DNA of 64,000 bases from Winogradskyella psychrotolerans RS-3 (GTDB lineage Bacteria > Bacteroidota > Bacteroidia > Flavobacteriales > Flavobacteriaceae): assembly GCF_000427335.1 (NCBI RefSeq), contig NZ_ATMR01000091.1, forward strand, positions 124,001 through 188,000. Reading direction: 5' to 3'. This document shows positions 44,640 through 59,767 of this stretch, piece by piece. Position numbers and translations under genes: made by a program. Under the pieces are notes generated by a model, which was not told the DNA's origin, did no database searches, and saw nothing but the letters and a program-made list of their open reading frames with translations. Numbering within the stretch: the stretch's first letter is position 1; each line of letters starts with the position of its first letter.

Positions 44640-46081
44640 ATGAAATCGACAAAACAGAAAATAGGTCTCGTTTTAGGCCCATTATTATTTATACTTATTA
44701 AGCTTTTTTGTCATCCTGAAGGTTTAGGTGAGTCCGCAAATGCGATTTTAGCTTCTACATCTTGGGTCGCCGTTTGGTGGATTACTGAAGCGATCTCTAT
44801 ACCTGTAACCGCTTTATTGCCTATTATACTGTTTCCGTTATCTGGTGGCTTAGCCCTAAGCGGTACTACAGCGGCTTATGGGCATAAATACATTTTCTTA
44901 TTTCTAGGTGGCTTTATACTCGCCATCGCCATTGAAAAATGGAACTTACACAAACGGATAGCCCTAAACATCATTAAAATTGTTGGGACTAATGTTAGTC
45001 GCATCATTCTTGGATTTATGGTGGCTACTGCCTTATTATCCATGTGGATTTCTAATACCGCCACAGCAGTAATGATTTTACCTGTGGGAATTGCTATTGT
45101 TTTACAGCTACAGGATAATCCTAAAACTAACTCCAATGAGAATTTAATATTTGGAAAAGCCCTAATGCTAGCTATTGCCTATAGTGCGTCTATAGGAGGT
45201 ATGGCCACACTAATAGGTACACCGCCGAATTTAGTATTAGCTGGCGTGGTTGAAAGCACTTATAATACCGAAATTACATTTTCGCAATGGTTTATGTTTG
45301 GCTTTCCTATAAGTGTTATTTTACTGATTATCTGCTGGTTTTATTTAACCCGATTTGCCTTCAAATTTGAACAAAAAGAGTTTCCTGGTGGTCGAAAAGA
45401 AATTGAAAATCAGCTGAATGCTTTAGGAAAAACATCTCACGAAGAAAAAGTGATTCTCGTAGTCTTTACGATTACTGCCATAGCATGGATTAGCAGGTCA
45501 TTTTTACTAACTAAATGGTTACCCGCAATTGACGATACTATTATTGCAATGATGGCCTCTATTATCTTGTTTTTAATTCCTAATAAAAAGGGAACCAGGC
45601 TTTAATTTCTTGGGAAGACGCTGTAAAGTTACCTTGGGGTATTTTGTTACTTTTTGGTGGTGGTATGGCTTTAGCAAATGGTTTTGAGTCTAGTGGTTTA
45701 GCCATTTGGATCGGCAACCAATTAACTTCTTTGATTGGGGTATCTCTTTTTATTCTCTTACTAGTCTTAATTGCCTCGGTTAACTTTTTAACTGAAATTA
45801 CATCGAATATGGCAACTACAGCCATGTTATTACCCGTTCTAGTATCCTTGGCTGCCGTTATTAATGTGCATCCTTATATATTACTGGTCAGTGCCACTTT
45901 AGCGGCCTCATGTGCATTTATGCTTCCTGTTGCCACACCACCAAATGCTGTGGTTTTTGGCTCAGGCTATTTAAAAATAGAAGATATGGTTAAAAAAGGC
46001 ATTTGGATGAATGTGATTTCTATTTTACTCATCACGTTAATTGTGTATTTTGTGTTGCCTTTAATTTGGGATTTGAATTAA
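44640..46081 (+). pseudogene. DASS/SLC13-family transporter, frameshifted at a G3 run (likely intact gene with an indel)
   Basis: First frame 44640-45605 (321 residues), second 45644-46081. At Pro-Asn-Lys-Lys-Gly near 45587-45593 the run GGG needs a fourth G: then Asn-Gln-Ala-Leu-Ile-Ser-Trp-Glu-Asp-Ala-Val-Lys continues seamlessly into the second part, giving 480 residues. Ser-Asn-Thr-Ala-Thr-Ala-Val-Met-Ile-Leu-Pro and Ile-Gly-Thr-Pro-Pro-Asn-Leu are the sodium-binding SNT motifs of sodium:dicarboxylate/sulfate transporters, and the second SNT-like motif (Thr-Ser-Asn-Met-Ala-Thr-Thr) is in the second part. Confidence 0.9.
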
Positions 46082-46084
46082 ACA

Positions 46085-46813
46085 CTAGATATTTAAGCGA
46101 CTATACACCATAGATTTATAGCTTTCACCTATTGGAATACGTTCTTCTTTAATAATAATTCTATTTTTTTGAATAGAGGTGATTTTATTGACATTAACCA
46201 GATACGAGCGATGCACTCTTATAAACATCGTTTCGGGTAACTTAGATTGCATTTCCTTAAAGCTCATTAAGGTTAATATGGGTTTCGCGTTTTCAGAATG
46301 AATTTTTAAATAATCTTTTAAACCTTGAATATGCTTAATTTCCTTGATGTCTATTTTTAAGTTTTCGTACTCCGATTTTACAAAAATGAAATCATCTTCG
46401 TGTGTAGGCGCCTCACCACCTGCAGAAGAAATATGGACAGATGTGCTTACTTCATTTAGCTTCATCATCTCTTTAACGCGGTTTACCGCTTTTAAAAACC
46501 GTGGAAATGGAATGGGTTTCATTAAGTAATCCACAGCATTAAGGTCAAAACCCTCTAAAGCATATTCTGGGTAAGCAGTTGTAAAAATAAAGTAAGGGAC
46601 TTTGCCTTCTAAGGATCGTATGAGTTCAATACCCGAAATGTTAGGCATTTCAATATCAGAAAACACCAAATCTATACGGTTGTTATTTATAAAATCTAAA
46701 GCTTCAATGGCATTAGTAAACGTGCTAATCACCTCTACTGCTCCTAGAGCCTGACAATAAGACTCAATGACACCTATTGCTAAAGGTTCGTCATCAATTA
46801 TTATGCATTTCAT
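46085..46813 (-). CDS. LytTR-family response regulator
   Basis: 242 residues. Receiver: Asp-Asp-Glu (7-9), phosphorylated Asp53 in Val-Phe-Ser-Asp-Ile-Glu-Met-Pro, Thr/Tyr and Lys switch residues in Phe-Thr-Thr-Ala-Tyr and Met-Lys-Pro-Ile. The C-terminal LytTR DNA-binding domain ends with Phe-Ile-Arg-Val-His-Arg-Ser-Tyr-Leu-Val-Asn. Start overlaps the kinase end by 20 bases. Partner of the LytS-type kinase and head candidate of the locus up to 52995. Confidence 0.95.
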   Translation of the reverse strand: MKCIIIDDEPLAIGVIESYCQALGAVEVISTFTNAIEALDFINNNRIDLVFSDIEMPNISGIELIRSLEGKVPYFIFTTAYPEYALEGFDLNAVDYLMKPIPFPRFLKAVNRVKEMMKLNEVSTSVHISSAGGEAPTHEDDFIFVKSEYENLKIDIKEIKHIQGLKDYLKIHSENAKPILTLMSFKEMQSKLPETMFIRVHRSYLVNVNKITSIQKNRIIIKEERIPIGESYKSMVYSRLNI

Positions 46814-47846
46814 TGTCGGTTAAATTTAAGGTTAAATGCACTCTATAATAGGAACTATCTTCATTTATTGTCAACTCATGATTGTTTTTATACAAATAAT
46901 TAAGTTGATTCTTTATGTTCTCTAATCCTACTCCAGAGTTTTTATCGTCACGTTTATATAAGCCTATTATATTTTCTACGTTTAAGCTTAGTTTATTATT
47001 GTCGACTACTATTTTTATGTCTATATGCGTATTTCCTTTGTAATCTGTTCCGTACTTAAAAGCATTTTCGATAAAGGAAATTAATAACAAAGAATAGATT
47101 TTTAAATTTCTTGTCTCTCCTTTTATGTTAAGTTTAACAGCTTCAGTATTTTTAAGCCGCAACCGCTGTAACGCAATATAATTCTTAATATAATTTATTT
47201 CCTTCTCTAATGTGACTTGCTCATTTCCTGCTTCATAAAGCATATAGCGCATTAACTCCGACAACGTAATAACAGCTTCTGGTGCATCATCGGATTTGCT
47301 TCTCACTAAAGCATAAATACTATTTAATGAATTAAATAAAAAGTGTGGATTTAGTTGATTTCTTAAAAACTGTAACTTAATCTCTTTTTGTTCATTTTCT
47401 AATTCCTTAGACAACCGATCGCGTTTATAAAAGTCCACCACCAAACTAAAAATACCACCTAAAAGAAAAATTGTTAGTGAAAACACAACAGGAATGGCGT
47501 GTCGTATACCAAAAGGTCCTCCTGGTCTATTAGGACGCATACCCATATTTCTAAACTCATCTCTTATTGGGTTTGGAATTAACACTTCACTCACATAATT
47601 ATAGAGTGCCAAAAATAAAATGGACACTACAATGTAGAAAAATAGTTGGCGTTTTAGTAAAATGTAAGGTACGAGAACTAAGTAGTTAACATAAAACAAG
47701 ATGGGATTCATTAATTGCTTTAAAAACACTTCATAAGGAATTTTACCTAAATTTAGATAAGCCGTTAATAAAGGAAATATACTAATGCAAAGCCAAACAA
47801 GGATATGTACAATAAATTCTTTATAAGATATGTTTTTAGTTAGCAT
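46794..47846 (-). CDS. LytS-type sensor histidine kinase
   Basis: 350 residues. Four membrane helices in residues 10-137, then the His_kinase (PF06580) block Leu-Arg-Asn-Gln-Leu-Asn-Pro-His168-Phe-Leu-Phe-Asn-Ser-Leu-Asn and the HATPase Asn box (Glu-Asn-Ala-Phe-Lys-Tyr-Gly) with Gly-Val-Gly-Leu-Glu-Asn. No extracellular domain, so it may sense within the membrane or through a partner. Twenty bases after DUF4907. Confidence 0.93.
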   Translation of the reverse strand: MLTKNISYKEFIVHILVWLCISIFPLLTAYLNLGKIPYEVFLKQLMNPILFYVNYLVLVPYILLKRQLFFYIVVSILFLALYNYVSEVLIPNPIRDEFRNMGMRPNRPGGPFGIRHAIPVVFSLTIFLLGGIFSLVVDFYKRDRLSKELENEQKEIKLQFLRNQLNPHFLFNSLNSIYALVRSKSDDAPEAVITLSELMRYMLYEAGNEQVTLEKEINYIKNYIALQRLRLKNTEAVKLNIKGETRNLKIYSLLLISFIENAFKYGTDYKGNTHIDIKIVVDNNKLSLNVENIIGLYKRDDKNSGVGLENIKNQLNYLYKNNHELTINEDSSYYRVHLTLNLTDNEMHNN

Positions 47847-47866
47847 GTACTATTTAATAAAGTCGA

Positions 47867-48217
47867 TTATATTCTCTTAAAATGTATGGCATTAGCATCT
47901 AAATCTTTAATACTAACTACTGGTATTTTATTTTCTATAAGTTTACGCATTACAAGATTTCCGATTTTTTCAGCATCTGCTTTAGAAGTAAAAACTTGTC
48001 GTCCTTTCACTGCAGGAATGTATTCTTGACGAATGAATAAATTATCATCATTATACACCTCATAGATCCAAAAGCTATCTTGTTCTATTACCTGTAATGC
48101 AAAAGATGTTTCATTTACGGCATTCTTTTCAACATCTCCGGGTTGGAAATAAAAGAACGCTACACATAAAATTATAATCCCTAAAAATACAGCTTTACTG
48201 TTATAATTATTTTTCAT
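47867..48217 (-). CDS. DUF4907-like small exported protein
   Basis: 116 residues. An N-terminal hydrophobic helix (Ala-Val-Phe-Leu-Gly-Ile-Ile-Ile-Leu-Cys-Val-Ala-Phe) acts as signal or anchor. Then Ile-Pro-Ala-Val-Lys-Gly-Arg-Gln-Val-Phe and Phe-Thr-Ser-Lys-Ala-Asp-Ala-Glu-Lys-Ile-Gly, which I recognise as DUF4907. It is 20 bases before the LytS gene. Possible sensor partner of the kinase. Confidence 0.7.
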   Translation of the reverse strand: MKNNYNSKAVFLGIIILCVAFFYFQPGDVEKNAVNETSFALQVIEQDSFWIYEVYNDDNLFIRQEYIPAVKGRQVFTSKADAEKIGNLVMRKLIENKIPVVSIKDLDANAIHFKRI

Positions 48218-48231
48218 CTCATTTTATTATT

Positions 48232-48279
48232 AAAAAAAGAGTCAGAATTAATGAAGGATATCAACATTATCCTGACTCT
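48232..48279 (-). terminator. Terminator between the kelch gene and DUF4907 gene
   Basis: AGAGTCAG and CTGACTCT outer arms; on the minus strand followed by a T7 run. It partly separates the kelch/outer-membrane genes from the regulator genes. Confidence 0.75.
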
Positions 48280-48345
48280 AAGTTGGCTACTACCCTCAAT
48301 CACTAAAGTAAAAGCCCATCAACCAATCTAATCAATCTTTATATT

Positions 48346-49353
48346 CTAGTTATCGTCGTCGTCTTGTTCTGCATTAGGGAAAAACTCCATATTATCATCT
48401 AAATACAAAGTTCCGTTTCTACCTAAAGCGACAAACGCACGCGCACCATCACTGAATGCAATAGCATCTCGTCTTGCATACAACTCAAATGGTGTTTTTT
48501 CTTCCCAAGTTTCGGTTGAAGGTGTATATTCATAAACCGTACTTAAACTCCCTGAATATTCACCACATGCAATATATCCTTTACCATCCATTGTAAACGC
48601 TACAGCATTAGATCGGTACACATAATCATCGTCATCGTCGTCTACGTCTGTAAGTTGCGTCCAAACTTCAGTATCTAAGTTAAACGACCAAAAATCGGTT
48701 TCATAAACTCCATTGCTTACACCTGTTGCCAAATAAACCTCGTTGCCCAATGTAAAAGTGACACCATCTCTTCTTTTGTCTCCACCAAAACCGAACACTT
48801 CTTCCCATGAATCTGAAACTGGGCTGTATTTCCAAAAGTCTTTTTTATCACTTCCATCATTTCCAGTGCCCACATAACCAAAGGAATCTGAACCAAACCC
48901 AACAGCTCCATACCTTGCTGAACCTCCAAAATCTGCAATGGTTGTCCAGCTATTAGTACCCACTTTGTATTTGTAAAAATCAGATAACTCATCATTAGTA
49001 TCTCCATTATAGCCTGTTCCCATATACCCATCGCTACCGATAACAAATGATACTGCAGAACTTCTCTCTACACCAGGAAAATCTGACAATTGTTGCCAAG
49101 AATTGGTATCCATATTATAACCCCAAAAATCGTTATAGTAATCACTACCATCATAACCAGTTCCCATATAGCCAATATTACCAATGGTAAAGGCCGAAGA
49201 ACTACTTCTTGATTCCTCATTAAATGTCGATTTCTTTACCCAGTTCCCTAAGGTTTCTTCATCGTCGTCATCACTATTACAACTATAAAACAACGCCAAC
49301 AGGGCACCTAAATAAAGCAATCTTATGGCTGATTTGTTATTCATTTTTCTCAT
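48346..49353 (-). CDS. Kelch-repeat lipoprotein (beta-propeller)
   Basis: 335 residues. Lipobox Leu-Phe-Tyr-Ser-Cys25 followed by an acidic Asp-Asp-Asp-Glu-Glu linker. About five kelch blades, each with Gly-Tyr-Met-Gly-Thr-Gly or similar, then Asp-Phe-Trp-Gly-Tyr and Trp-Gln-Gln-Leu: see Ala-Phe-Thr-Ile-Gly-Asn-Ile-Gly-Tyr. An Asp-rich C-terminus. Anchored at the outer membrane as a binding platform. Two bases between it and the outer-membrane protein gene. Confidence 0.9.
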   Translation of the reverse strand: MRKMNNKSAIRLLYLGALLALFYSCNSDDDDEETLGNWVKKSTFNEESRSSSSAFTIGNIGYMGTGYDGSDYYNDFWGYNMDTNSWQQLSDFPGVERSSAVSFVIGSDGYMGTGYNGDTNDELSDFYKYKVGTNSWTTIADFGGSARYGAVGFGSDSFGYVGTGNDGSDKKDFWKYSPVSDSWEEVFGFGGDKRRDGVTFTLGNEVYLATGVSNGVYETDFWSFNLDTEVWTQLTDVDDDDDDYVYRSNAVAFTMDGKGYIACGEYSGSLSTVYEYTPSTETWEEKTPFELYARRDAIAFSDGARAFVALGRNGTLYLDDNMEFFPNAEQDDDDN

Positions 49354-49354
49354 T

Positions 49355-50254
49355 TTACTTCTTATTTATATTAAAACTAATTCCTATGTTTAAGGATAAT
49401 GATTCCTTAGAATCAAAATCATATATGGTATTATCGCTTTCACTTACCGTAAGCTCACTTCCTAATAAATAGCCCATATTAAAATTTGTTGACCAATTAT
49501 CATCAAAACGAAATTGATAACCCAATCCTAATTTCAACGCTTTAAATTCTAATTCAGAATTATAGATAACCGCTTCATTTGCCAAGCTAAAACCTGAAGT
49601 ATTATTCGCATAAATGGATTCGGGTTGTGCTTTAAAATCAAAACTACTCTGCTCGTTTAGTTTGTAAAACACACCTGTGACTGGTATTCCTATTTCGTAT
49701 CTCAATTTTTCATTTACATTTTTAGAATACGATATTAAAGGGTAAAAGTTAGGCTTACCAAATAATGAACCGTAACCCGCACCTATTTTTAAGGATGATT
49801 TAAGTCCGTCTTTATCCCAAGTCTTCGTAAAGTTTGCGGCGTAACTCAATATAAAATCATCGCTAGAAATTTCTTCATTAAATGTTGAAGACAAATACGG
49901 TGCAATGGTGAAGTTTACATCCCAATTATTACGTAGTGCTTTTTTATATCTAGCAAACAGTTCTATACTGTGTAATTCTTCAAATGCACTGTAATCATGA
50001 TACCGATCATACGCATCAAAATCTAAACTATTATTAGTGTAGCTCATACCAAAACCAATGGTTGGCTTATCTAATACAGATGTAAAATCTATAGTTACTG
50101 ATTTAGTGTCTAATTGAACCTCGTTCAAATTAAAATAACTACTATACTCTAATGCCATTACATCTCCGGCATCTGTAGTAGTGAACATTTTTTGTCCATA
50201 CGACACCATAGAGACTAAGCTAAAGGTTAAATAATGTAATGTCTTTTTTCTCAT
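49355..50254 (-). CDS. Outer-membrane beta-barrel-like protein
   Basis: 299 residues. Signal peptide Leu-Thr-Phe-Ser-Leu-Val-Ser-Met-Val-Ser-Tyr-Gly-Gln. Alternating Tyr/Leu/Asp strands and a terminal Leu-Asn-Ile-Gly-Ile-Ser-Phe-Asn-Ile strand suggest an outer-membrane barrel of ten to twelve strands. No specific family. Same transcript as the kelch gene. Confidence 0.7.
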   Translation of the reverse strand: MRKKTLHYLTFSLVSMVSYGQKMFTTTDAGDVMALEYSSYFNLNEVQLDTKSVTIDFTSVLDKPTIGFGMSYTNNSLDFDAYDRYHDYSAFEELHSIELFARYKKALRNNWDVNFTIAPYLSSTFNEEISSDDFILSYAANFTKTWDKDGLKSSLKIGAGYGSLFGKPNFYPLISYSKNVNEKLRYEIGIPVTGVFYKLNEQSSFDFKAQPESIYANNTSGFSLANEAVIYNSELEFKALKLGLGYQFRFDDNWSTNFNMGYLLGSELTVSESDNTIYDFDSKESLSLNIGISFNINKK

Positions 50255-50468
50255 CGGGTGCTAACTTACTACCACAATCTTTTACAACAATTACAAAATA
50301 TACCTAGACCCTTTTTTTATAGACAGACACCAAATTTTAATCTACAAAACCAATTATAAACTTTAAACGTATAAATCTGCCTTTCTGTAGATACATATAA
50401 GCCATAGGTATATTAGACTTTTTATTAGATCAATTGGTTAGTTGATTTGTAGAAATTATACAAAACAA

Positions 50469-51767
50469 ATGTTGAAATCATTTCTAAAATTATTGACAGT
50501 CATTATCACTTTAATGGTCATAATATCGTGTTCTACAGACGCTGAAGATGCAAACTTAGTTGCAGGTGAAGACTTCACAGGCACCAATATAAGAGTTCTA
50601 TCTATTGATACCTTTTCTGTAAAATTATCTACAATGAAGTTTGATTCTATTACAACCTCAACTAGTGATCGCTTATTAGTTGGTAAGTATCAGGATAACG
50701 ATATGGGAATTGTAAATACCTCTACTTATATACAGATTAGTCCTTCTTCTTTTTACTTAGATAATGATGCCGTTTTAGATAGCGTTGGTTTAGTTCTAGG
50801 ATATGACACCTATTATTACAACGATACCACCCAAGTTGCCACACTTAATATTCATAAGCTCACCGACAAAATGAGTTCTGATGATACGTACTTCTATAAC
50901 ACCACAGAAACCGCTTACGAAACAACTCCTTTAACGAGTAAAACCTACTTCCCTACTCCAAGTAAAGATTCAGTTTTTGTAACGCTGCCCTACAGTTTTG
51001 GTGAAAATCTATTTAATGATATTAGAGATAATACTATTACGGATCAAGAATCCTTATACCAACAACTAAAAGGGTTAACCATAAAGCCTGGCACTGACGA
51101 TAATGCCTCTATCATTGGTTTTTCAACGGATAGCGGTACAAGTTACCTGCGGTTTTATTATACTATTCCAGATGAGTTAGAAACCGATGAATACACCTAT
51201 GACATGACGATTAATACATACTATAATCATATAGAAAGTGACGTTACCGGTTTACCTCTAGAAGCTATAGTTGACCAAGAATACAACCTAGCGTCATCTG
51301 AAAGTGGAAACATAAGTTATAACCAAGCTGGCACAGGTTATGTGACTAGAATTGAATTCCCAACAATTAGAGACTTGTATAATCTAGGCAACGAAGGCAC
51401 CATATTAGATGCCACCCTCTATATAGAACCGAATTCTGCATCGCATTCTGAGATTCAACCCTTAAGCGAAACCTTACTGCTTTATACTATAGATCAAAAT
51501 AATGACTTGGCCAGCCAAATTAGTAATAGTGTTGATGTGGTCTCAGCAACCACAACCAATGTTAGTTCAGAATTTAATCAAATTGTATTTACAGTACCTG
51601 TTATAGATTTTATAGATCAGAAATTGAATGAGAGTCCGGTAACTAAAGATGCCCTTATTTTAATTCCAACAGACTATAACTCTACCATAAATAAAATCAT
51701 TTTTAATGACAGTCAGCGATCTGGCTTTAACACCAAATTAGTTATAACCTATGCATCATATGAATAA
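50469..51767 (+). CDS. DUF4270-family lipoprotein
   Basis: 432 residues from the Met at 50469; a start at 50442 would put nine extra polar residues before the signal. Lipobox Ile-Ile-Ser-Cys. Leu-Val-Gly-Lys-Tyr-Gln-Asp-Asn-Asp-Met-Gly, then repeated beta structure with Leu-Asp-Ser-Val-Gly-Leu-Val-Leu and a C-terminal Ile-Ile-Phe-Asn-Asp match DUF4270, a Bacteroidota surface lipoprotein family. Divergent from the kelch operon. Overlaps the next gene by 17 bases. Confidence 0.82.
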   Translation: MLKSFLKLLTVIITLMVIISCSTDAEDANLVAGEDFTGTNIRVLSIDTFSVKLSTMKFDSITTSTSDRLLVGKYQDNDMGIVNTSTYIQISPSSFYLDNDAVLDSVGLVLGYDTYYYNDTTQVATLNIHKLTDKMSSDDTYFYNTTETAYETTPLTSKTYFPTPSKDSVFVTLPYSFGENLFNDIRDNTITDQESLYQQLKGLTIKPGTDDNASIIGFSTDSGTSYLRFYYTIPDELETDEYTYDMTINTYYNHIESDVTGLPLEAIVDQEYNLASSESGNISYNQAGTGYVTRIEFPTIRDLYNLGNEGTILDATLYIEPNSASHSEIQPLSETLLLYTIDQNNDLASQISNSVDVVSATTTNVSSEFNQIVFTVPVIDFIDQKLNESPVTKDALILIPTDYNSTINKIIFNDSQRSGFNTKLVITYASYE

Positions 51768-52995
51768 ATATCCATCTCTAATTATTGTCGCACTACTGTT
51801 TGGGTTACAAGCCTACTCTCAGTCTAGTAATCTTACTGGCTCACCGTATTCACTTTTTGGTTTGGGAGTAGAAAGCAATTCTGGCACTGGTAGAAATAGT
51901 GGACTTGGTAGCACAGGTATTTCCTTAGACGCTAGCTATGGTATTAATCTATATAATCCGGCAGCTTTTGCAACCTTAAAAGAAAATGAAATTACATTTG
52001 ATTTTGGTGGTTCCGCGGAACTGAACAATCTTATAGGAGATGACATAAGTGAGCAAAGAACAACCTATAATTTTACCAACATCTCATTAGCTTTTAATCA
52101 TAATAACGATTACGGTATTGGATTAACCTTAAAACCAGCGACTACTGTTGGGTACTCCCTAATTGGTATAGAAAATAATATTGAAGGCAGTTCTGAGCAA
52201 TTCACAACTAACATTGGTGGTAATGGTGGTATCAGTGAATTACGATTGGATTATGCCCGAACAGTCTTCGAAAATTTAAATGTTGGCCTGAAAGCATCGT
52301 ATTTATTTGGTAAAATAGAAGAAAGTGAATCCATCGTAACCTCAAGCAGTTACTTAGAAATTAACGAAACTAATTATTATAGTGGTGCACAATTAGGCAT
52401 CGGTTTACAATACAATTTATTAGACAAGCATAATTTTGGATTTACAGTAGATTTTCCAACCGTATTAAAAGGCACAAAAGATGTTGTAGTTGGTAAATAT
52501 TCAAATGCCGCTTATACCACACTCGAAGAAACAGAAGACGAATCTATTGATAGTTTTTATCTCCCTTTAAAACTTGGATTTGGCTATAATACTAAGTTCA
52601 AGAATCTCCTTTTAACTGCTGATTATAAGAAAAATTTCTGGGGCACTACGAATCAGTCTGATGCTATAGGTAATTATACTGATCAAAATATTTTTGGCTT
52701 AGGAGCGTCGTATGCTGTGGATCCTACAAGTTATAAATTATGGAAACGTGTAGACTTTAGAATGGGATTAAACTACAATTCGGGCTACCTTAAAGTAGAT
52801 GACACGAATATAGATACGTATTCCGCTTCCTTTGGTGTTGGTTTGCCAATTGGTAAAAGATCATTGTTAAACATTTCTTATACGCTAGGTAAAAAAGGAA
52901 CTACGGAGAGTATTCTAATTAAAGAATATGTAAACACCTTAAACATTAATATTTCATTATCTGATTTATGGTTTCAAAAACGTAAGTTTAATTAG
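51751..52995 (+). CDS. Outer-membrane protein, possible transport-like barrel
   Basis: 414 residues. Signal peptide Leu-Ile-Ile-Val-Ala-Leu-Leu-Phe-Gly-Leu-Gln-Ala-Tyr-Ser-Gln. Ser-Pro-Tyr-Ser-Leu-Phe-Gly-Leu-Gly near the start of the mature protein, Asn-Pro-Ala-Ala-Phe-Ala-Thr and many Gly-Tyr/Phe strands suggest an FadL- or PorV-like barrel of 14 or so strands. Overlaps the DUF4270 gene, so the two form one module. Confidence 0.72.
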   Translation: MHHMNKYPSLIIVALLFGLQAYSQSSNLTGSPYSLFGLGVESNSGTGRNSGLGSTGISLDASYGINLYNPAAFATLKENEITFDFGGSAELNNLIGDDISEQRTTYNFTNISLAFNHNNDYGIGLTLKPATTVGYSLIGIENNIEGSSEQFTTNIGGNGGISELRLDYARTVFENLNVGLKASYLFGKIEESESIVTSSSYLEINETNYYSGAQLGIGLQYNLLDKHNFGFTVDFPTVLKGTKDVVVGKYSNAAYTTLEETEDESIDSFYLPLKLGFGYNTKFKNLLLTADYKKNFWGTTNQSDAIGNYTDQNIFGLGASYAVDPTSYKLWKRVDFRMGLNYNSGYLKVDDTNIDTYSASFGVGLPIGKRSLLNISYTLGKKGTTESILIKEYVNTLNINISLSDLWFQKRKFN

Positions 52996-53007: not shown

Positions 53008-54009
53008 TTAGCGTTTTCGACTACGATTCGTTTTACAACGCCTACAAGGTGATAAATAGGTTACTGACACCTCATAAACTCCATTGGTGCGACCGATTTT
53101 AGAGGTATTCATATCATAAGATAATCCGAATCTAAACTCCGTAAATTCTAAACCAAAGAAACCATTAACAGACGTTAAAATGTGACTATTTTCATCATTT
53201 TGAGCAGGATTGGTCGCAGCAGTCACACCAATAAGAAAGTGGTTGACAACAAATAACGACCCAATATCTAAACGATTATACTCTCCTTGTTGCATGTAAT
53301 TAGCGGTCATCATGATGCTGTAATCATTCATAAATGGAAATCTAAAATTACCATGTAAAGAATAGAAAATATCTAAGGGGACTTCTTCTCCATCTACAAA
53401 TGAAATATTAGGACGATTCAAATGCTTTGCCGATGCCCCAAACCAATAGGTTAATCCATTAAATTCTTCTCTCTCAAACACAAAGCCCGCAGAAATATCT
53501 CCAAAAAAAACATTATCTACAGTATTACTTAGAGGATCTACAGACACAGGATTAACGACTCCCGAATTAATATTAATCTGATCTGCCAAAGTGAGATTAC
53601 TAAAGCCTGCATCCTTAAATCCAAGACCGACTTCTAAAGCTGGTCTAAAATACCAACCACCATCGAGATTAACACGGTGTGCATAATTGACATTAAGTTG
53701 ATAATAATTGTAATTGCTAAATGCTTCGTGTTGTCTTAAGAAATTTACGCCCACTCCGAAACCCAAACTTGGTCCATAATCAAACGATTTGTTAAGATAG
53801 GCATATTGAGTATCAACTCTTAAATCTAAATTTGGCCACTGTGTTCTGCTTAAGACTCCGGCAGCTATTCTATCACTATCTTCAAAACCTGAAAACCCAG
53901 GATTTATCGTTTCTTGTATATAGTTAGATTGTGTAAAAATAGGGTCTTGAGCTTGTGCTTGAATCCCCATCAAAACCGCTATAATACTTATAATTCTTTT
54001 CAATGTCAT
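53008..54009 (-). CDS. PorP/SprF-family T9SS membrane protein
   Basis: 333 residues from Met at 54009; a start at 54057 would overlap the adhesin by 41 bases. Signal peptide ends Ala-Gln-Ala-Gln, then Asp-Pro-Ile-Phe-Thr-Gln-Ser and Asn-Pro-Gly-Phe-Ser-Gly, the PorP/SprF signature. It is an outer-membrane protein that helps export and surface-anchor the adjacent adhesin. The basic end Arg-Cys-Lys-Thr-Asn-Arg-Ser-Arg-Lys-Arg is slightly unusual. Confidence 0.92.
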   Translation of the reverse strand: MTLKRIISIIAVLMGIQAQAQDPIFTQSNYIQETINPGFSGFEDSDRIAAGVLSRTQWPNLDLRVDTQYAYLNKSFDYGPSLGFGVGVNFLRQHEAFSNYNYYQLNVNYAHRVNLDGGWYFRPALEVGLGFKDAGFSNLTLADQININSGVVNPVSVDPLSNTVDNVFFGDISAGFVFEREEFNGLTYWFGASAKHLNRPNISFVDGEEVPLDIFYSLHGNFRFPFMNDYSIMMTANYMQQGEYNRLDIGSLFVVNHFLIGVTAATNPAQNDENSHILTSVNGFFGLEFTEFRFGLSYDMNTSKIGRTNGVYEVSVTYLSPCRRCKTNRSRKR

Positions 54010-54016
54010 TTCGGTT

Positions 54017-57000
54017 TTATTTGATAAATACAAAAGCTCCTTGTTCCTTAATTTCATGGCCGTAAAAAGTCTTGGCCGTTAATGTGTAATAGTAATTTCC
54101 ATTTTCTGCTTCCTCATCTTTCACCTTACCATCCCATCCGCGTATTGCATCACCCGACTCTTTATAAATAAGACTTCCCCAAGTATCAAAGACCGTCATT
54201 TCTAAACTATTGAGTCCGATGTAAACAGGTCCAAAGAAATCATTTATACCATCATCGTTTGGTGTAAACGCATCTGGCATTATTAATTTATAGCCTTCCT
54301 CTATAATTAATGTTATTGTTTTTTCGTAAACACAACCATAAGGATAGGTAACGGTTTGTTTTACCACATAACTACCCGGCGTAAAATAGGTATGAAATGG
54401 ATTTTCTTCACCCGAAAAACTACCATCTCCAAAATCCCACAGTATGGTTTCGTAATGCCCTGTGGCTTCGTTTATAAATTCAATAGGATCTTGAATGGCA
54501 TAAATACCATAATTTAAATAGCCAAAAGAAGAGGTATCGAAATCAGCATCACCTAATGTGGTTAACTCCACATTTAATGTGTAATTAATTGAACACCCAA
54601 AACTATCTGTAACTTCTAAAATCACTAAACCGTTTTCATCAGTCGTCATAAATTCATTGTTAAGACCACTAACTGTTCCGCTAGACCAGTTATATTGAAA
54701 TGGTGGTACTCCTCCACTTGCTATGGCTATAAACGTTTGGTCTATAGTTCTTGCCTCACAATTCACATCAACTTGCTCTTCAACATTTAAAACTAAAGGC
54801 TCAAATCGTGTGACTTCCCAACTGCCTTCAATACTACAGCCATTGGCATCTGTAACTGTAGCTACGTACGTGTTTGGTGGTACATCAACTAAATCTTCAG
54901 TCGTTGCACCATTAGACCAAACCACATTGAAAGGTTGCGTTCCTCCTTGTATAAGTAAATTAATGGCGCCACTATTAGGGTCTTCACATTCTAAAGCATT
55001 AGTAATTGTTGTAGATAAGGCTAATGGTAAAATATTATGAATGGTAAAACTCTCTTGAATAACACAAGGCACACCATCTGTAATCGTCACCTTATAGGTT
55101 CCTGGCGCTAAGTTATTTCGTTCTGTACCAGCTGTAGCATCATCGTCCCAAACAAGAGTTACAGGATCGATGCCTCCTACAAAATTTAAGGTGATGCTGG
55201 CATCGTTTTCACCAGCACAAGTCATTTGTGTGACTTCCGGATCAATTAAAAAGACCGGAGGTTCATCGATTATCACAGGAAACTGACGTTCACAATTTTC
55301 AGCATCTGTAATGGTTATTGTATAAGTTCCACCCGATAAATTAGTCTGACTATAACCTGATCCTAAATTACTCCATGTAACTGTATACGGTGAAACACCA
55401 CCTGAAATTGAATTAATAAGTATCGACCCATCATTGTCACCATAACACACAATTTGTGATACACTCAAATCGATGTCAATTTGATCATTTTGAAGAACCT
55501 CAACCTCTAAAGTATCGATACAACCAGAATCATCTGTAACTGTAAGATTATAAATTCCTGCGATTAATGTGTCTATATTTTGATTTGTACTTGAAAAACC
55601 ATTCGGTCCTGACCAAGCATATGTGTAATCTGTTCGACCTCCAATGACATTTATAGAAATTATTCCTGTAGCATCACCAAAACATAAGACATCTGTTTTA
55701 GAATCTAGTGTCACTTCTAATTCATCGGGTTCTTCCACATTAAAATTGAGTGCTATTGGTCCACAAGAATTAACATCCGTCACAGAAATGGAGTAATCTC
55801 CTGGTCCAAGATCAGATAAATCTTCACCTGTAGAAAATGGAGCTCCATTTAGACTCCAAGTATAAACATAAGGAGGAGTTCCTCCTAAAACCTCTATACC
55901 TATTTCACCGTCATTTGCTCCGAAGCATGAAATAGTTTCTACATCAAACTCTACGGCACTAAAGAGTAGTTCTTCTGGTTCTGTTATCGTTATGATTTCA
56001 GAATATGGACAGCCACCATCATCTATAATGTCTAAGGTATAGTCTCCAGCTTCAAGATTAGAAATATTTTGGTCTGTGCTTGAAAATCCATTTGGTCCTG
56101 TCCAAATGATGTTATAGGCGTTTCCTGTTGAAAATGGAATACCACCAACAATTGTAATATCAATAGTTGCGGTATTCACTTGATAACATAAATTATTCGT
56201 CACGCTTGACATTACTGAAATGGATGGATTCACCGTAACCACAACTTCAAAATCCATACCAGGACAATTTCCTGAAACAGGAGTGACTGTATATGTTACA
56301 GTTGCAGAATTTGTCGTTGTGTTTTCTAAAAACTGAGATACTGTCGCAATTGGTGTTAACTGCTCTGTGGCTCCTGTTATGCTTCCTGCCGGACTCACTA
56401 CTGGTGTTGTCCACGTGTATAATGTATTTAGTGGTACAATATCACCTGTGTTACTGGTGTCTGGTAAAAATGTGAACGTATTACCACTACAAATCAATAT
56501 ATCAGCATCATCAATAATAGGAGTTTCATTGACGATGATTTCTGCAGTTGTTGATATGATTTCGGTACAACCACCAGAGCTAAACGTGATGACCACATAA
56601 TAGTACGTCGTTCCAATTGAAGTCACTTCCGGGTTGTATGTATCTGAATTTGCACCTGCAATAGCAGTACCAGTTGTGATATCGTCTATACCGTTTTGAT
56701 ACCATTGGTACGTTGCTGTACCTGTGCCATTGGTATAACCTATTGTTAAAGCCGAAGTAGTTTCACCTAAACATAATTCATCAGAAATAGGTTGTGCATT
56801 AAATTGTGCTCCTGCACTAATTTCAATCTCAGAGACCGCACTAGTGACTTCACAGCCTGAAACATCTTGAGTTATCTCAACGTAATAAAACAGCGTACCT
56901 ACTGCAGTTGCTGGAGGTGTATAAATGCTTGATGTTGCTCCTGCTATTGGTGTTCCGGAAGTGGTATCGTTAATAGTATTCACATACCATTGGTAAGATA

Positions 57001-59767
57001 AAGTACCTAAACCACCAGAAACCGTTACGTCTAAATCTTGAACTGCAGAATTCTGACATAAACTCTGAAAACCTATAGGTTGTGTTGTTATCACAGGATC
57101 TTCAACGACCACTATTTCGGAAACGTCACTTAAGAGCATTGAACAGCCATTAGAGACAAAAGAAATTTCTGCATAATAATAAAATGTCCCAACCGTATTA
57201 AATACAGAAGGTGTATACGTTGACGCTGTAGCGCCAGAAATTAATGTGCCACCAGAATTACTATTGGTGGTATTGCTAAACCATTGGTAGGTTGCATTTC
57301 CAGATCCTCCAGAAATAAGGACTAAAAGTTCCTCTGAACGACCACCAACACATAAAGATTGTGTATCAAAGGGTTGCGTATCGATTTGTGGAGCATTTGC
57401 GACTTCAATTTCTGCTGTATCAGATATAATTTCATTACAACCACCAGAGGAAAACGTAATACGAACATAATAATACGTAATGCCGACCGTGTCTGTTGGT
57501 GGAGAAAAGGTGGCTGAGGTTGCTCCTGTAATCGCACTTCCAGAAGTGGTATTGTTTACTGTATTTTCATACCATTGGTAAACGGGGGTTCCTGTACCTT
57601 GATAGACAACCGATAAATCATCTGTTGTACCATTTTGGCAGACACCATTAGAAATAGGTTGCGTTGTAATTAATGGCGCAGGCTCTACAATAATCTCAAA
57701 ATCAACCGGCAATCCTTCACAACCATCAATTTCTGGTGTTACCGTGTATATTAAAGTAATTGGAGAGGTTATAGAATTAATTATGGTTTGTACCGGAATA
57801 GTGTTAGATGTTCCACTTGGCGTATAACCTGTAAGTCCTGCTGGATTATTAGACACCCAACTAAACGTTGTACTCGCCTCGTCTGACGTTAATATAATCG
57901 CAGCTGTTGAAGCACCAGAACAAATCGTTTGAGAAACATCTGTATTTGTAATTGTGGGAGAATCATTCACTGAAAATGTTTCCGTTTCTGTCGTTGTGCC
58001 ACAACCATTTGTGACACTAAAGGTAATTGTATAATCACCAACGGTTGTATAATTTATGATTCCTGGATCTAATTGATCTGATGTTGCAGGTGAACCTCCA
58101 GGAAACAACCAACTATACGTTATCGTATCTGATATTGGCGCGCAAGTACCAACCGTAGCTATGGGATTAAAAGTTAACGAACCACAAGCATCATCAACAG
58201 GATCTATTACTGCTGTTGGTGGTCGTTTGACCTCAATAAGTTGAGACGTTGAAACATCTCCACAAGAATTTGTAGCTGTCATGACAATTTCATAAGTTCC
58301 TGCGGTATCAAATTGAAAGGAAGGATTTTCAGAGTTCTCGTCTGTACCATTTGTAAAACTCCAGGATTCTGAAGTTCCACAAAACTCTGAGGTGTAGATG
58401 ACTTCCCATGCATATGTTGGAGAAGTACAACTATTAGACTCATCTGTAGTGTTTGATGTAGATATAGCTAAAGGTGAACATCCTTCATTTAGGTTTGTTG
58501 TAAAAACAGGAACCAATGGAGCTTCTATACAAATTTGCTGCGTAACAGGATCTGTTGTTCCACAACCATTTACAGCATACAGTGAAATTGTATATGTGCC
58601 AGGCGACGTATAGAAATGCGCAGGTTCAAAATCTGTATAAGTGGTACCGTCACCCATGTCCCAAAACCAATTGGCATCTGTGTTACAACCCGTATTATAT
58701 CCACTTACTGATGTATTATTAATTGGTATATTAACATTCACACAGGCATTATCATCAATACTAAAATTAACTTCTGGTTTTTTAAGAACTGTGATAGGAC
58801 CAGCTGTCAAATTAGATGTTCCACAAGAGGTAATGATATCTAAAAGAATTGTATAACTAGAATTAGGACAATTAGACTCTGTGTACGTGTGTGGAATTGG
58901 GAAATTAGTAGATGCAGAAGGATTAGAACTATTATAATAAGATGAAGATTCTAAGTCGTCTTGTGTTAAAACAAATGTTGTACCATCGCCAAAATCGATA
59001 TCATATAATGTATCAGGAGGGTTTTCACCCCACGTACTAATTGCAAATTGTAAAGGACTAATTGGTAAACATAAATCAACCGTACTTCCTGGTGTCACAA
59101 TACCTCCGGTAGGATTACTTGAGTTTTTTACTAAATATGTTTTCTGTGAATTACAACCATTAGCACCAGTTGCGCTTATCACCATATTAAATGAACCTAA
59201 GTTCTGATAGGTATGAGAAAGAGGGAATATTATATTATTTTCAATATTTCCGTCCCCCCAATTTATGGAATACGATGTCACACAACTATTTGATGCCGAA
59301 TCATTCTCTACTACAATTGTATATTCTACATCAATAGCATTACAATTAGCAAATGGAGTTCCAAAGTTAGCGTTAGGATCTATAAAATTAATATCTGGTC
59401 TTTGCTTTACAGTGATTGATTGAGAAGATGAGCTATCCTCTCCATTATCATCGGTTACCGTAAGTGAAATATTAAAATTTTGTGTTCCACATCCGAATGA
59501 CTGAAACGCATGATTTGGATTAGATTGTGTAGAAGTGCCACCATCACCAAAATCCCAAAGATATTCAAATGGACCATCACCTGTTACTGTAGAAGTAAAA
59601 GACACACTTTGACCAGAGCAAACATTATTGTTAAAAGTAAAACTGACTGCCGGTGATGCACTATTATTAGTAAGTTTTTTATACGTTATAGTATTATTCA
59701 GCGCAATAGCAGAACTAATAATAACAAAAAAAATTATAAAAAAATTGATATACTTTTTATTCTTCAT
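54017..59767 (-). CDS. Giant SprB-like surface adhesin with PKD, Ig-like and SprB repeats and gliding-motility C-terminal domain
   Basis: 1916 residues. Signal peptide, then PKD-type domains (Trp-Asp-Phe-Gly-Asp-Gly), four Ig-like repeats of about 90 residues (each with Tyr-Gln-Trp-Tyr or Phe and Gly-Thr-X-Tyr-Tyr-Tyr-Val), seven SprB repeats of about 75 residues (Val-Gly-Gly-X-X-Pro, Gly-Thr/Asp-Tyr), another PKD and the C-terminal type B sorting domain Pro-Asp-Ala-Phe-Thr-Pro-Asn-Asp-Asp-Gly-Ile-Asn-Asp. It would be secreted by T9SS and act in adhesion or gliding. The SprF gene follows after seven bases. Confidence 0.92.
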   Translation of the reverse strand: MKNKKYINFFIIFFVIISSAIALNNTITYKKLTNNSASPAVSFTFNNNVCSGQSVSFTSTVTGDGPFEYLWDFGDGGTSTQSNPNHAFQSFGCGTQNFNISLTVTDDNGEDSSSSQSITVKQRPDINFIDPNANFGTPFANCNAIDVEYTIVVENDSASNSCVTSYSINWGDGNIENNIIFPLSHTYQNLGSFNMVISATGANGCNSQKTYLVKNSSNPTGGIVTPGSTVDLCLPISPLQFAISTWGENPPDTLYDIDFGDGTTFVLTQDDLESSSYYNSSNPSASTNFPIPHTYTESNCPNSSYTILLDIITSCGTSNLTAGPITVLKKPEVNFSIDDNACVNVNIPINNTSVSGYNTGCNTDANWFWDMGDGTTYTDFEPAHFYTSPGTYTISLYAVNGCGTTDPVTQQICIEAPLVPVFTTNLNEGCSPLAISTSNTTDESNSCTSPTYAWEVIYTSEFCGTSESWSFTNGTDENSENPSFQFDTAGTYEIVMTATNSCGDVSTSQLIEVKRPPTAVIDPVDDACGSLTFNPIATVGTCAPISDTITYSWLFPGGSPATSDQLDPGIINYTTVGDYTITFSVTNGCGTTTETETFSVNDSPTITNTDVSQTICSGASTAAIILTSDEASTTFSWVSNNPAGLTGYTPSGTSNTIPVQTIINSITSPITLIYTVTPEIDGCEGLPVDFEIIVEPAPLITTQPISNGVCQNGTTDDLSVVYQGTGTPVYQWYENTVNNTTSGSAITGATSATFSPPTDTVGITYYYVRITFSSGGCNEIISDTAEIEVANAPQIDTQPFDTQSLCVGGRSEELLVLISGGSGNATYQWFSNTTNSNSGGTLISGATASTYTPSVFNTVGTFYYYAEISFVSNGCSMLLSDVSEIVVVEDPVITTQPIGFQSLCQNSAVQDLDVTVSGGLGTLSYQWYVNTINDTTSGTPIAGATSSIYTPPATAVGTLFYYVEITQDVSGCEVTSAVSEIEISAGAQFNAQPISDELCLGETTSALTIGYTNGTGTATYQWYQNGIDDITTGTAIAGANSDTYNPEVTSIGTTYYYVVITFSSGGCTEIISTTAEIIVNETPIIDDADILICSGNTFTFLPDTSNTGDIVPLNTLYTWTTPVVSPAGSITGATEQLTPIATVSQFLENTTTNSATVTYTVTPVSGNCPGMDFEVVVTVNPSISVMSSVTNNLCYQVNTATIDITIVGGIPFSTGNAYNIIWTGPNGFSSTDQNISNLEAGDYTLDIIDDGGCPYSEIITITEPEELLFSAVEFDVETISCFGANDGEIGIEVLGGTPPYVYTWSLNGAPFSTGEDLSDLGPGDYSISVTDVNSCGPIALNFNVEEPDELEVTLDSKTDVLCFGDATGIISINVIGGRTDYTYAWSGPNGFSSTNQNIDTLIAGIYNLTVTDDSGCIDTLEVEVLQNDQIDIDLSVSQIVCYGDNDGSILINSISGGVSPYTVTWSNLGSGYSQTNLSGGTYTITITDAENCERQFPVIIDEPPVFLIDPEVTQMTCAGENDASITLNFVGGIDPVTLVWDDDATAGTERNNLAPGTYKVTITDGVPCVIQESFTIHNILPLALSTTITNALECEDPNSGAINLLIQGGTQPFNVVWSNGATTEDLVDVPPNTYVATVTDANGCSIEGSWEVTRFEPLVLNVEEQVDVNCEARTIDQTFIAIASGGVPPFQYNWSSGTVSGLNNEFMTTDENGLVILEVTDSFGCSINYTLNVELTTLGDADFDTSSFGYLNYGIYAIQDPIEFINEATGHYETILWDFGDGSFSGEENPFHTYFTPGSYVVKQTVTYPYGCVYEKTITLIIEEGYKLIMPDAFTPNDDGINDFFGPVYIGLNSLEMTVFDTWGSLIYKESGDAIRGWDGKVKDEEAENGNYYYTLTAKTFYGHEIKEQGAFVFIK

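Follow-up and report, generated by a model that had tools for sequence, protein, structure and literature searches.

The DNA considered here is a 64,000-nucleotide stretch of Winogradskyella psychrotolerans RS-3 (contig NZ_ATMR01000091.1), called the window below, to whose full length all positions refer. At 46085-52995 it holds a locus of seven open reading frames (ORFs) that encodes relatives of BamG and BamH, two subunits of the β-barrel assembly machinery (BAM), together with a kelch lipoprotein, a DUF4907 protein and a LytS/LytTR regulator pair. ORFs were listed, and domains were assigned by Pfam and NCBIfam family models scoring over their cut-offs. The minus strand carries a LytTR response regulator (46085-46813; receiver PF00072 and LytTR domain PF04397, over cut-off), a LytS-type membrane histidine kinase (46794-47846; PF06580, His_kinase, over cut-off) in which the Pfam scan detects no 5TM-LYT sensor domain, a DUF4907 protein with an N-terminal hydrophobic segment (47867-48217; PF16250, 76 bits, cut-off 25), a kelch propeller lipoprotein (48346-49353; several kelch families over cut-off, lipobox C-NSDDDDEE) and an outer-membrane-like protein of 299 amino acids (aa) at 49355-50254, an optional member. 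Divergent from these, on the plus strand, are a DUF4270 surface lipoprotein, BamH2 (50469-51767; PF14092, 75.5 bits, cut-off 27), and a barrel, BamG2 (51751-52995; NF053685, 361.8-361.9 bits, cut-off 250), whose ORFs share 17 bp (51751-51767). The ORF list and Pfam thus bear out the gene layout of the original prediction, made from the DNA letters. The DUF4270 ORF is listed from a TTG (50442-51767), but the in-frame ATG at 50469 is the likelier start, because the lipoprotein signal (IISC-STDAED) comes after it. The original prediction also spoke of two barrels: one is named BamG by NCBIfam, and for the 299-aa protein Pfam returns no family above cut-off (the best, Autotransporter, has an E-value of 0.0094 and stays below it), so that its barrel is only presumed.

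The definition of BamG and BamH as BAM subunits of Bacteroidota dates from 2025 (PMC12611786 and PMC12578637, which we cite for parts of their main texts). The window barrel matches the solved BamG chains 9hjm_F, 9hiv_F and 9n2d_B, from Porphyromonas gingivalis, Bacteroides thetaiotaomicron and Flavobacterium johnsoniae. Searched with a profile built from core DUF4270 proteins, the solved structures yield the F. johnsoniae chain labeled 'Bam H' (9n2d_C, E 4.6e-84) and, from P. gingivalis, a BAM chain labeled 'DUF4270 domain-containing protein' (9hjm_G, E 1.2e-22); DUF4270 is therefore the BamH family. Compared profile to profile, the window lipoprotein aligns with core BamH over nearly its whole length (probability 99.9, E 1.8e-34). 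Since the same genome has, elsewhere, a higher-scoring BamG (435.8 bits) and a higher-scoring DUF4270 protein (215 against about 75 bits), the window pair corresponds to BamG2-BamH2. The core genes lie at coaX-bamG-TPR-lptC and glgA-bamH-glmS, an arrangement also found in G018, a genome of the same family; in G349 (family f4) the sites read coaX-bamG-lptC and glgA-bamH-metK. As a side observation, the frame of the own-genome core bamH (L004, 1489-3230) stays open across the lipoprotein signal, with no in-frame ATG, GTG or TTG ahead of that signal and a run of A where the start is expected; this may be a sequencing slip, an unusual start or a real lesion.

A tree of 42 BamH proteins separates all 23 locus copies, as a single clade, from the 19 core copies, with a support of 99 in the Shimodaira-Hasegawa-like approximate likelihood-ratio test (SH-aLRT); this tree and its BamG counterpart were built by a quick method, with the own-genome core BamH cut to 384 aa. 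Judged from these trees, BamH2 at least is an old duplicate. The window BamH2 (432 aa) is shorter than the core BamH proteins measured, and BamH2 of F. johnsoniae is without the hairpin that binds BamM (PMC12611786). BamG2 keeps the tail P-Y-S..G.G (SPYSxFGxG), which aligns with the solved chains and is invariant in nine of nine BamG2 sequences and near-invariant in core BamG, and it also retains the C-terminal WFxKxK end. In the F. johnsoniae structure, the SPYSxFGxG tail of BamG threads towards BamA, and the C-terminal end touches BamD (PMC12611786).

The locus occurs in 9 of 60 Flavobacteriaceae genomes, its own included, where a low-scoring second DUF4270, or else DUF4907, led to it. In the window and in eight fetched relatives, each of another genus, LytTR-LytS-(DUF4907)-kelch is divergent from BamH2-BamG2, G049 being the one without DUF4907. 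Named genomes were also scanned with the kelch alignment, which gave 241 relatives; with the best 80 of these, the set comprises 88 loci (the eight fetched relatives plus 80; two contigs occur twice, and kelch is present by construction). BamH2 divergently adjoins kelch in all 88, and the genes keep together in relatives, as the original prediction would have them; BamG2 is present in 87, LytTR in 86, and DUF4907 and LytS in 85 each. Missing members coincide with contig ends at L108 and L129, which is not the case at L049 and L067 (DUF4907) or L092 (LytS). At L102, BamH2 is broken into two ORFs. A relative of the 299-aa protein is found in 37 of the 88 loci; the arrangement of lipoprotein plus barrel on both sides of the promoter, to which the original prediction had drawn attention, thus exists in some lineages only, and its symmetry is lost wherever the optional second barrel-like gene is missing. 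Identity to the window proteins is 50 to 61% for kelch, 36 to 51% for BamG2 and 31 to 43% for BamH2.

Could these genes be chance neighbors, or a block inherited passively, with no joint function? Such an origin would agree with the fact that the F. johnsoniae paralogues can be deleted and that a B. thetaiotaomicron double mutant resembles bamH alone (PMC12611786, PMC12578637; see below). We regard it as very improbable: in an open comparison of 1590 ORFs at 103 loci, six families recur in 92 to 103 loci, against 40 for the 299-aa family and 29 for the next one, and they do so across families and at BamH2 identities of 31 to 43%; moreover, the operator motif described below is conserved.

Across the phylum, 29 genomes among 395 Bacteroidota carry DUF4907, and they belong to 17 of the 170 genera. 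At all 29 loci, each of which was examined, kelch adjoins DUF4907; BamH2 is present in 26 and BamG2 in 24. In a subset of DUF4907 loci, 14 bear BamH2, which is divergent in 11 and on the kelch strand in three (L135, L139, L144). The regulators are variable outside Flavobacteriaceae: LytS/LytTR are adjacent in L132, L140 and L144, differently placed or lower-scoring in L135 and L137, reduced to LytTR in L143, and not found close by in L133, L134, L136, L138, L139, L141 and L142. Of 13 genomes in one genus (g61), 12 have the locus next to murI, and for 11 of the 12 the fetched stretch extends to bamA; BamA, PorG, UppS and MurI were confirmed by family model in one g61 genome. Two loci without BamG2/BamH2 have features of their own: L134 (6041-9614) has three tandem kelch-like genes ahead of DUF4907, and L141 (6169-9835), possibly a broken locus, has a shortened kelch gene and DUF4907 beside transposase genes that look, by eye, of the IS21 type.

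To establish the distribution of core and locus pairs, 26 genomes were searched with the BamG and the BamH family model (BamH2 of G029 and G033 was assigned by synteny only). None of them is without a BamG or without a BamH. Both pairs are present in 16, the core pair only in three (G100, G181, G318), core BamG with locus BamH2 only in two (G306, G339), and the locus pair only in five (G014, G066, G310, G447, G295). In the family sample, 1 of 60 genomes gives no DUF4270 match (G016, 91% complete, in 220 contigs). Profiles of the core proteins recover both copies in the control genomes G018 and G349, and in the five genomes they recover locus copies only, plus a 34-residue scrap beside coaX in G295. 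In G014, a single contig of 3.93 Mb, coaX-TPR-lptC and panD-panC/glgA-glmS are intact and bamG and bamH are gone from both; a 79-residue remnant resembles the end of core bamG (E 7.5e-5). G310 has coaX-lptC and glgA-metK without bamG and bamH, G447 has coaX-lptC without bamG (glgA was not found near panD), and G066 has glgA-metK without bamH (coaX was not found). In G295 there is no full bamG between coaX and TPR, and the glgA surroundings are not comparable. No masked runs occur in the syntenic stretches of these five genomes. Of the 21 genomes that have a full locus pair, the same five are without core bamG and without core bamH, although these two genes are unlinked; if the losses were independent, the chance of this coincidence would be 1 in 20,349, uncorrected for kinship.

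Core-pair status differs between G310 and G349, which both locus trees place as sisters, so that the core pair was likely lost repeatedly. It is conceivable that the five genomes contain core proteins too divergent for our profiles. Taken as they stand, the genomic data suggest that the spare pair has, in some lineages, apparently displaced standard BamG/BamH. This bears on a second alternative, in which BamG2-BamH2 would fold or display only the kelch lipoprotein (and the 299-aa barrel where present), with no general role in BAM; other surface lipoprotein-barrel pairs, too, have their genes side by side. It would lead one to expect the association seen between BamH2 and kelch, which extends to all 88 kelch-queried loci and to 26 of the 29 genomes with DUF4907, and no other partner of the pair is as well conserved as kelch. 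Nevertheless, sole-pair status in five genomes needs a general function, if BamG and BamH are essential there too, and kelch occurs without BamG2-BamH2 in 3 of the 29 genomes; we therefore tend to disfavor a dedicated role and rate it as improbable.

The sites to which LytTR proteins bind are direct repeats with a spacing of about two helical turns. The original prediction had pointed to the intergenic region 50255-50468 as a place for LytTR sites, and a conserved direct-repeat motif, a candidate for such sites, is indeed found there. An expectation-maximization search over 61 non-redundant divergent promoter regions, from loci with both LytS and LytTR, yields a 36-bp motif in which two half-sites, resembling ATAGACCAA and set 21 bp apart, flank an A/T tract. 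Its log-likelihood is 747, against 120 to 127 in three shuffled sets. When the motif is trained on one half of the loci, 28 of 31 and 30 of 30 held-out loci (58/61) score above the 99th percentile of shuffled sequences. With the full matrix on 69 loci (1.40 Mb), matches of at least 20 bits number 87 in the divergent region (53 loci, most of which had trained the matrix) and three elsewhere. In the window, overlapping 36-bp matches on the plus strand at 50297 (30.5 bits) and 50318 (24.6 bits) form an array with half-sites 21 bp apart, 50297-50353, upstream of the operon that runs from the outer-membrane-like protein through kelch, DUF4907 and LytS to LytTR. A second, weaker direct repeat (50379-50414, minus strand, 15.2 bits) lies upstream of bamH2. 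The array is a candidate LytTR operator, to which the LytTR protein of the locus would bind. The best match in the window outside the promoter, 19.6 bits at 47496 (minus strand) within the LytS gene, may be due to chance or be an internal site. Among loci without the kinase pair, L143 scores 23.4, L138 17.6 and L133 -2.1 bits; L137, with its differently placed pair, scores 8.0.

Acidic residues behind the lipobox are as in surface lipoproteins. The window BamH2 signal reads C-STDAED, and the lipobox cysteine of kelch is invariant in nine of nine aligned sequences. A simple pattern, which misses some cases and among them the window kelch, finds a lipobox in 81 of 104 kelch, 92 of 101 BamH2 and 10 of 101 DUF4907 proteins; at least two acidic residues follow it in 72 kelch and 72 BamH2 proteins, and never in DUF4907. 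From these signals, the kelch lipoprotein is probably surface exposed and DUF4907 probably faces the periplasm. In the window kelch, the only domains that Pfam reports are kelch repeats, which start at about residue 46 of 335. A search of solved structures with the kelch profile did not discriminate, as it returned kelch propellers in general (the designed SAKe6 first; best 60 of 102 matches).

A third alternative is that the locus is a surface-stress sensor, kelch and DUF4907 being the sensing arm of LytS, with BamG2-BamH2 as the export machine of the sensor or as a reinforcement that is switched on. In E. coli, RcsF and Rcs constitute an outer-membrane stress pathway. RcsF is a lipoprotein exported by BamA (cited in PMC12578637), and this precedent speaks for a sensor; if that reading is right, the likeness is that a lipoprotein handled by BAM feeds a phosphorelay, an analogy that claims no sequence relation. 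Kelch, DUF4907, LytS and LytTR lie on one strand and in the same order in most of the 88 loci, the kinase has no sensor domain by Pfam, and kelch is better conserved than BamG2 and BamH2, all of which would suit a sensor. Yet kelch, DUF4907 and BamH2 persist in L133, L138, L139 and L142 without a nearby kinase pair, and sensing alone leaves the replacement of core BamG/BamH unexplained. We consider a sensor unlikely, if somewhat less so than a dedicated assembly pair.

The explanation that we favor, and hold to be probable, is that the locus encodes an alternative, regulated extracellular BAM module, a lid or canopy, able to replace the standard pair. We favor it because of the families present, the gene order, the BamH2 clade, the tail and end of BamG2, the sole-pair genomes, the proximity to bamA in g61, the promoter motif and the BamI precedent discussed below. 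BamG2 would dock on BamA, and through its C-terminal end on BamD, instead of BamG, and would carry the BamH2 arch above the site at which barrels are let go by BamA. The kelch propeller lipoprotein would be a further surface subunit of the lid, possibly in the place of BamI or BamM in the solved complexes, or else the preferred client of the lid; DUF4907 may work with it from the periplasmic side. LytS/LytTR would control both divergent operons through the 21-bp-phased direct repeats of the shared promoter, in response to some inducing signal. A bolder version is more speculative, and we offer it with less than even confidence: two interchangeable BAM lids, a housekeeping BamG-BamH and an inducible BamG2-BamH2-kelch-DUF4907 under a surface-reading LytTR, the second having replaced the housekeeping pair in several lineages, where essential BAM function would depend on it.

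The known BAM systems offer points of comparison. BAM of F. johnsoniae consists of BamA/D/G/H/M/P, and paralogues BamG2 and BamH2 are named there (Liu et al. 2025, PMC12611786). The BamG and BamH families are common to this system and the window; its core bamG and bamH, essential and at separate loci (Fjoh_1412, Fjoh_0823; PMC12611786), are unlinked, whereas the window pair is adjacent and accompanied by kelch, DUF4907 and LytS/LytTR. In B. thetaiotaomicron and P. gingivalis, BAM comprises BamA/D/G-K (Silale et al. 2025, PMC12578637). B. thetaiotaomicron shares with the window an adjacent BamG2-BamH2 pair (BT1785-1786, a putative operon). It has a propeller surface lipoprotein, BamI, which is six-bladed and in contact with BamH (PMC12578637) and to which the kelch lipoprotein here may be comparable. 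BamI carries an N-terminal immunoglobulin-like domain in addition to its propeller. Iron regulation of BT1785-86 was considered and dropped: for iron depletion a 3.6-fold increase of the pair is listed, but its P is 0.437, and many other rows have the same value of 3.551 (PMC10434189). Left unused, too, are five F. johnsoniae coevolution lines, each with one mutation in an adjacent LytTR/kinase pair, FJOH_RS09515/09520 (PMC10197871, part of the text); this pair is not shown to be that of the kelch locus, and rough tag numbering relative to bamA (Fjoh_1690) puts it elsewhere.

Several observations weigh against an alternative BAM module. The window BamH2 by itself finds no solved BamH in sequence searches of solved structures, a second search returning just SilC (E 0.76). 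In the BamG tree (42 proteins), two label changes are needed to account for the 21 locus copies, and support for the deep branches is weak. Kelch and DUF4907 occur without BamG2/BamH2 in three of the 29 DUF4907 genomes, and BamH2 without BamG2 in two, the same genomes as listed above. In F. johnsoniae, bamG2 and bamH2 can be deleted and are barely expressed on rich medium (PMC12611786). In B. thetaiotaomicron, BamG2 was readily deleted, proteomics did not detect G2/H2, a bamH bamH2 double mutant was no worse than bamH in sodium dodecyl sulfate, and the authors argue against an alternative complex (PMC12578637). Deletability and low expression in those tests, with no inducer known, are also what one expects of an inducible module.

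The outer membrane of Bacteroidota is dominated by surface lipoprotein-barrel complexes. Descriptions of the BAM lid of these bacteria date only from 2025, and they assign no function to BamG2/BamH2; the locus offers these two candidate partners (kelch and DUF4907) and a regulator with testable sites, and there are natural genomes in which the pair may suffice by itself. It thereby becomes possible to ask by experiment if the composition of BAM is switched according to condition or client. The original prediction called the system uncharacterized, which fits the function of BamG2/BamH2 in the text portions cited and not their names, already given in F. johnsoniae and B. thetaiotaomicron. Of its proposed 'regulated assembly or uptake', assembly agrees with the BamG/BamH relatives, the gene order and the promoter motif, and nothing was found in support of uptake. 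In the open-access literature we found no paper on DUF4907, and none combining kelch, LytTR, Bacteroidetes and outer membrane. The terms kelch, synten and LytTR are absent from the main texts of PMC12611786 and PMC12578637, as are operon and two-component from that of the former (main texts without figures, such as its bam gene-organization figure, or supplements). The names BamG2 and BamH2 are thus already published, and open-access main texts gave no description of the locus, its operators or the replacement.

Additional genes occur at or near the locus. Eight loci (for example L100, L109, L112, L113 and L115) have a second, lower-scoring LytS-LytTR pair just past BamG2. A secreted lipoprotein resembling intradiol dioxygenases (PF00775, checked by Pfam) lies within the locus in L049 (8015-8713) and L145 (10986-11699); in L246, L247, L251 and L252, one assigned by its similar start lies between LytS and LytTR. 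The commonest extra neighbors, at 29 of the 103 loci, are efflux adaptor genes about 5 kb off on the BamG2 side; fewer loci also have ABC-type and TolC-like genes (named by eye), and in L144 an OEP/TolC gene adjoins BamH2. In the window, a transporter of the sodium:sulfate/dicarboxylate type (44640-46081, plus strand) is broken into two ORFs of 321 and 145 aa, and its counterpart in relatives, a neighbor family, is a single ORF of about 480 aa; the split may be a frameshift or a sequencing slip. On the other side, adjoining the locus at 53008-59767 (minus strand), a PorP/SprF-family gene overlaps the gene for a 1916-aa surface protein, and by family these two would be related to type IX secretion.

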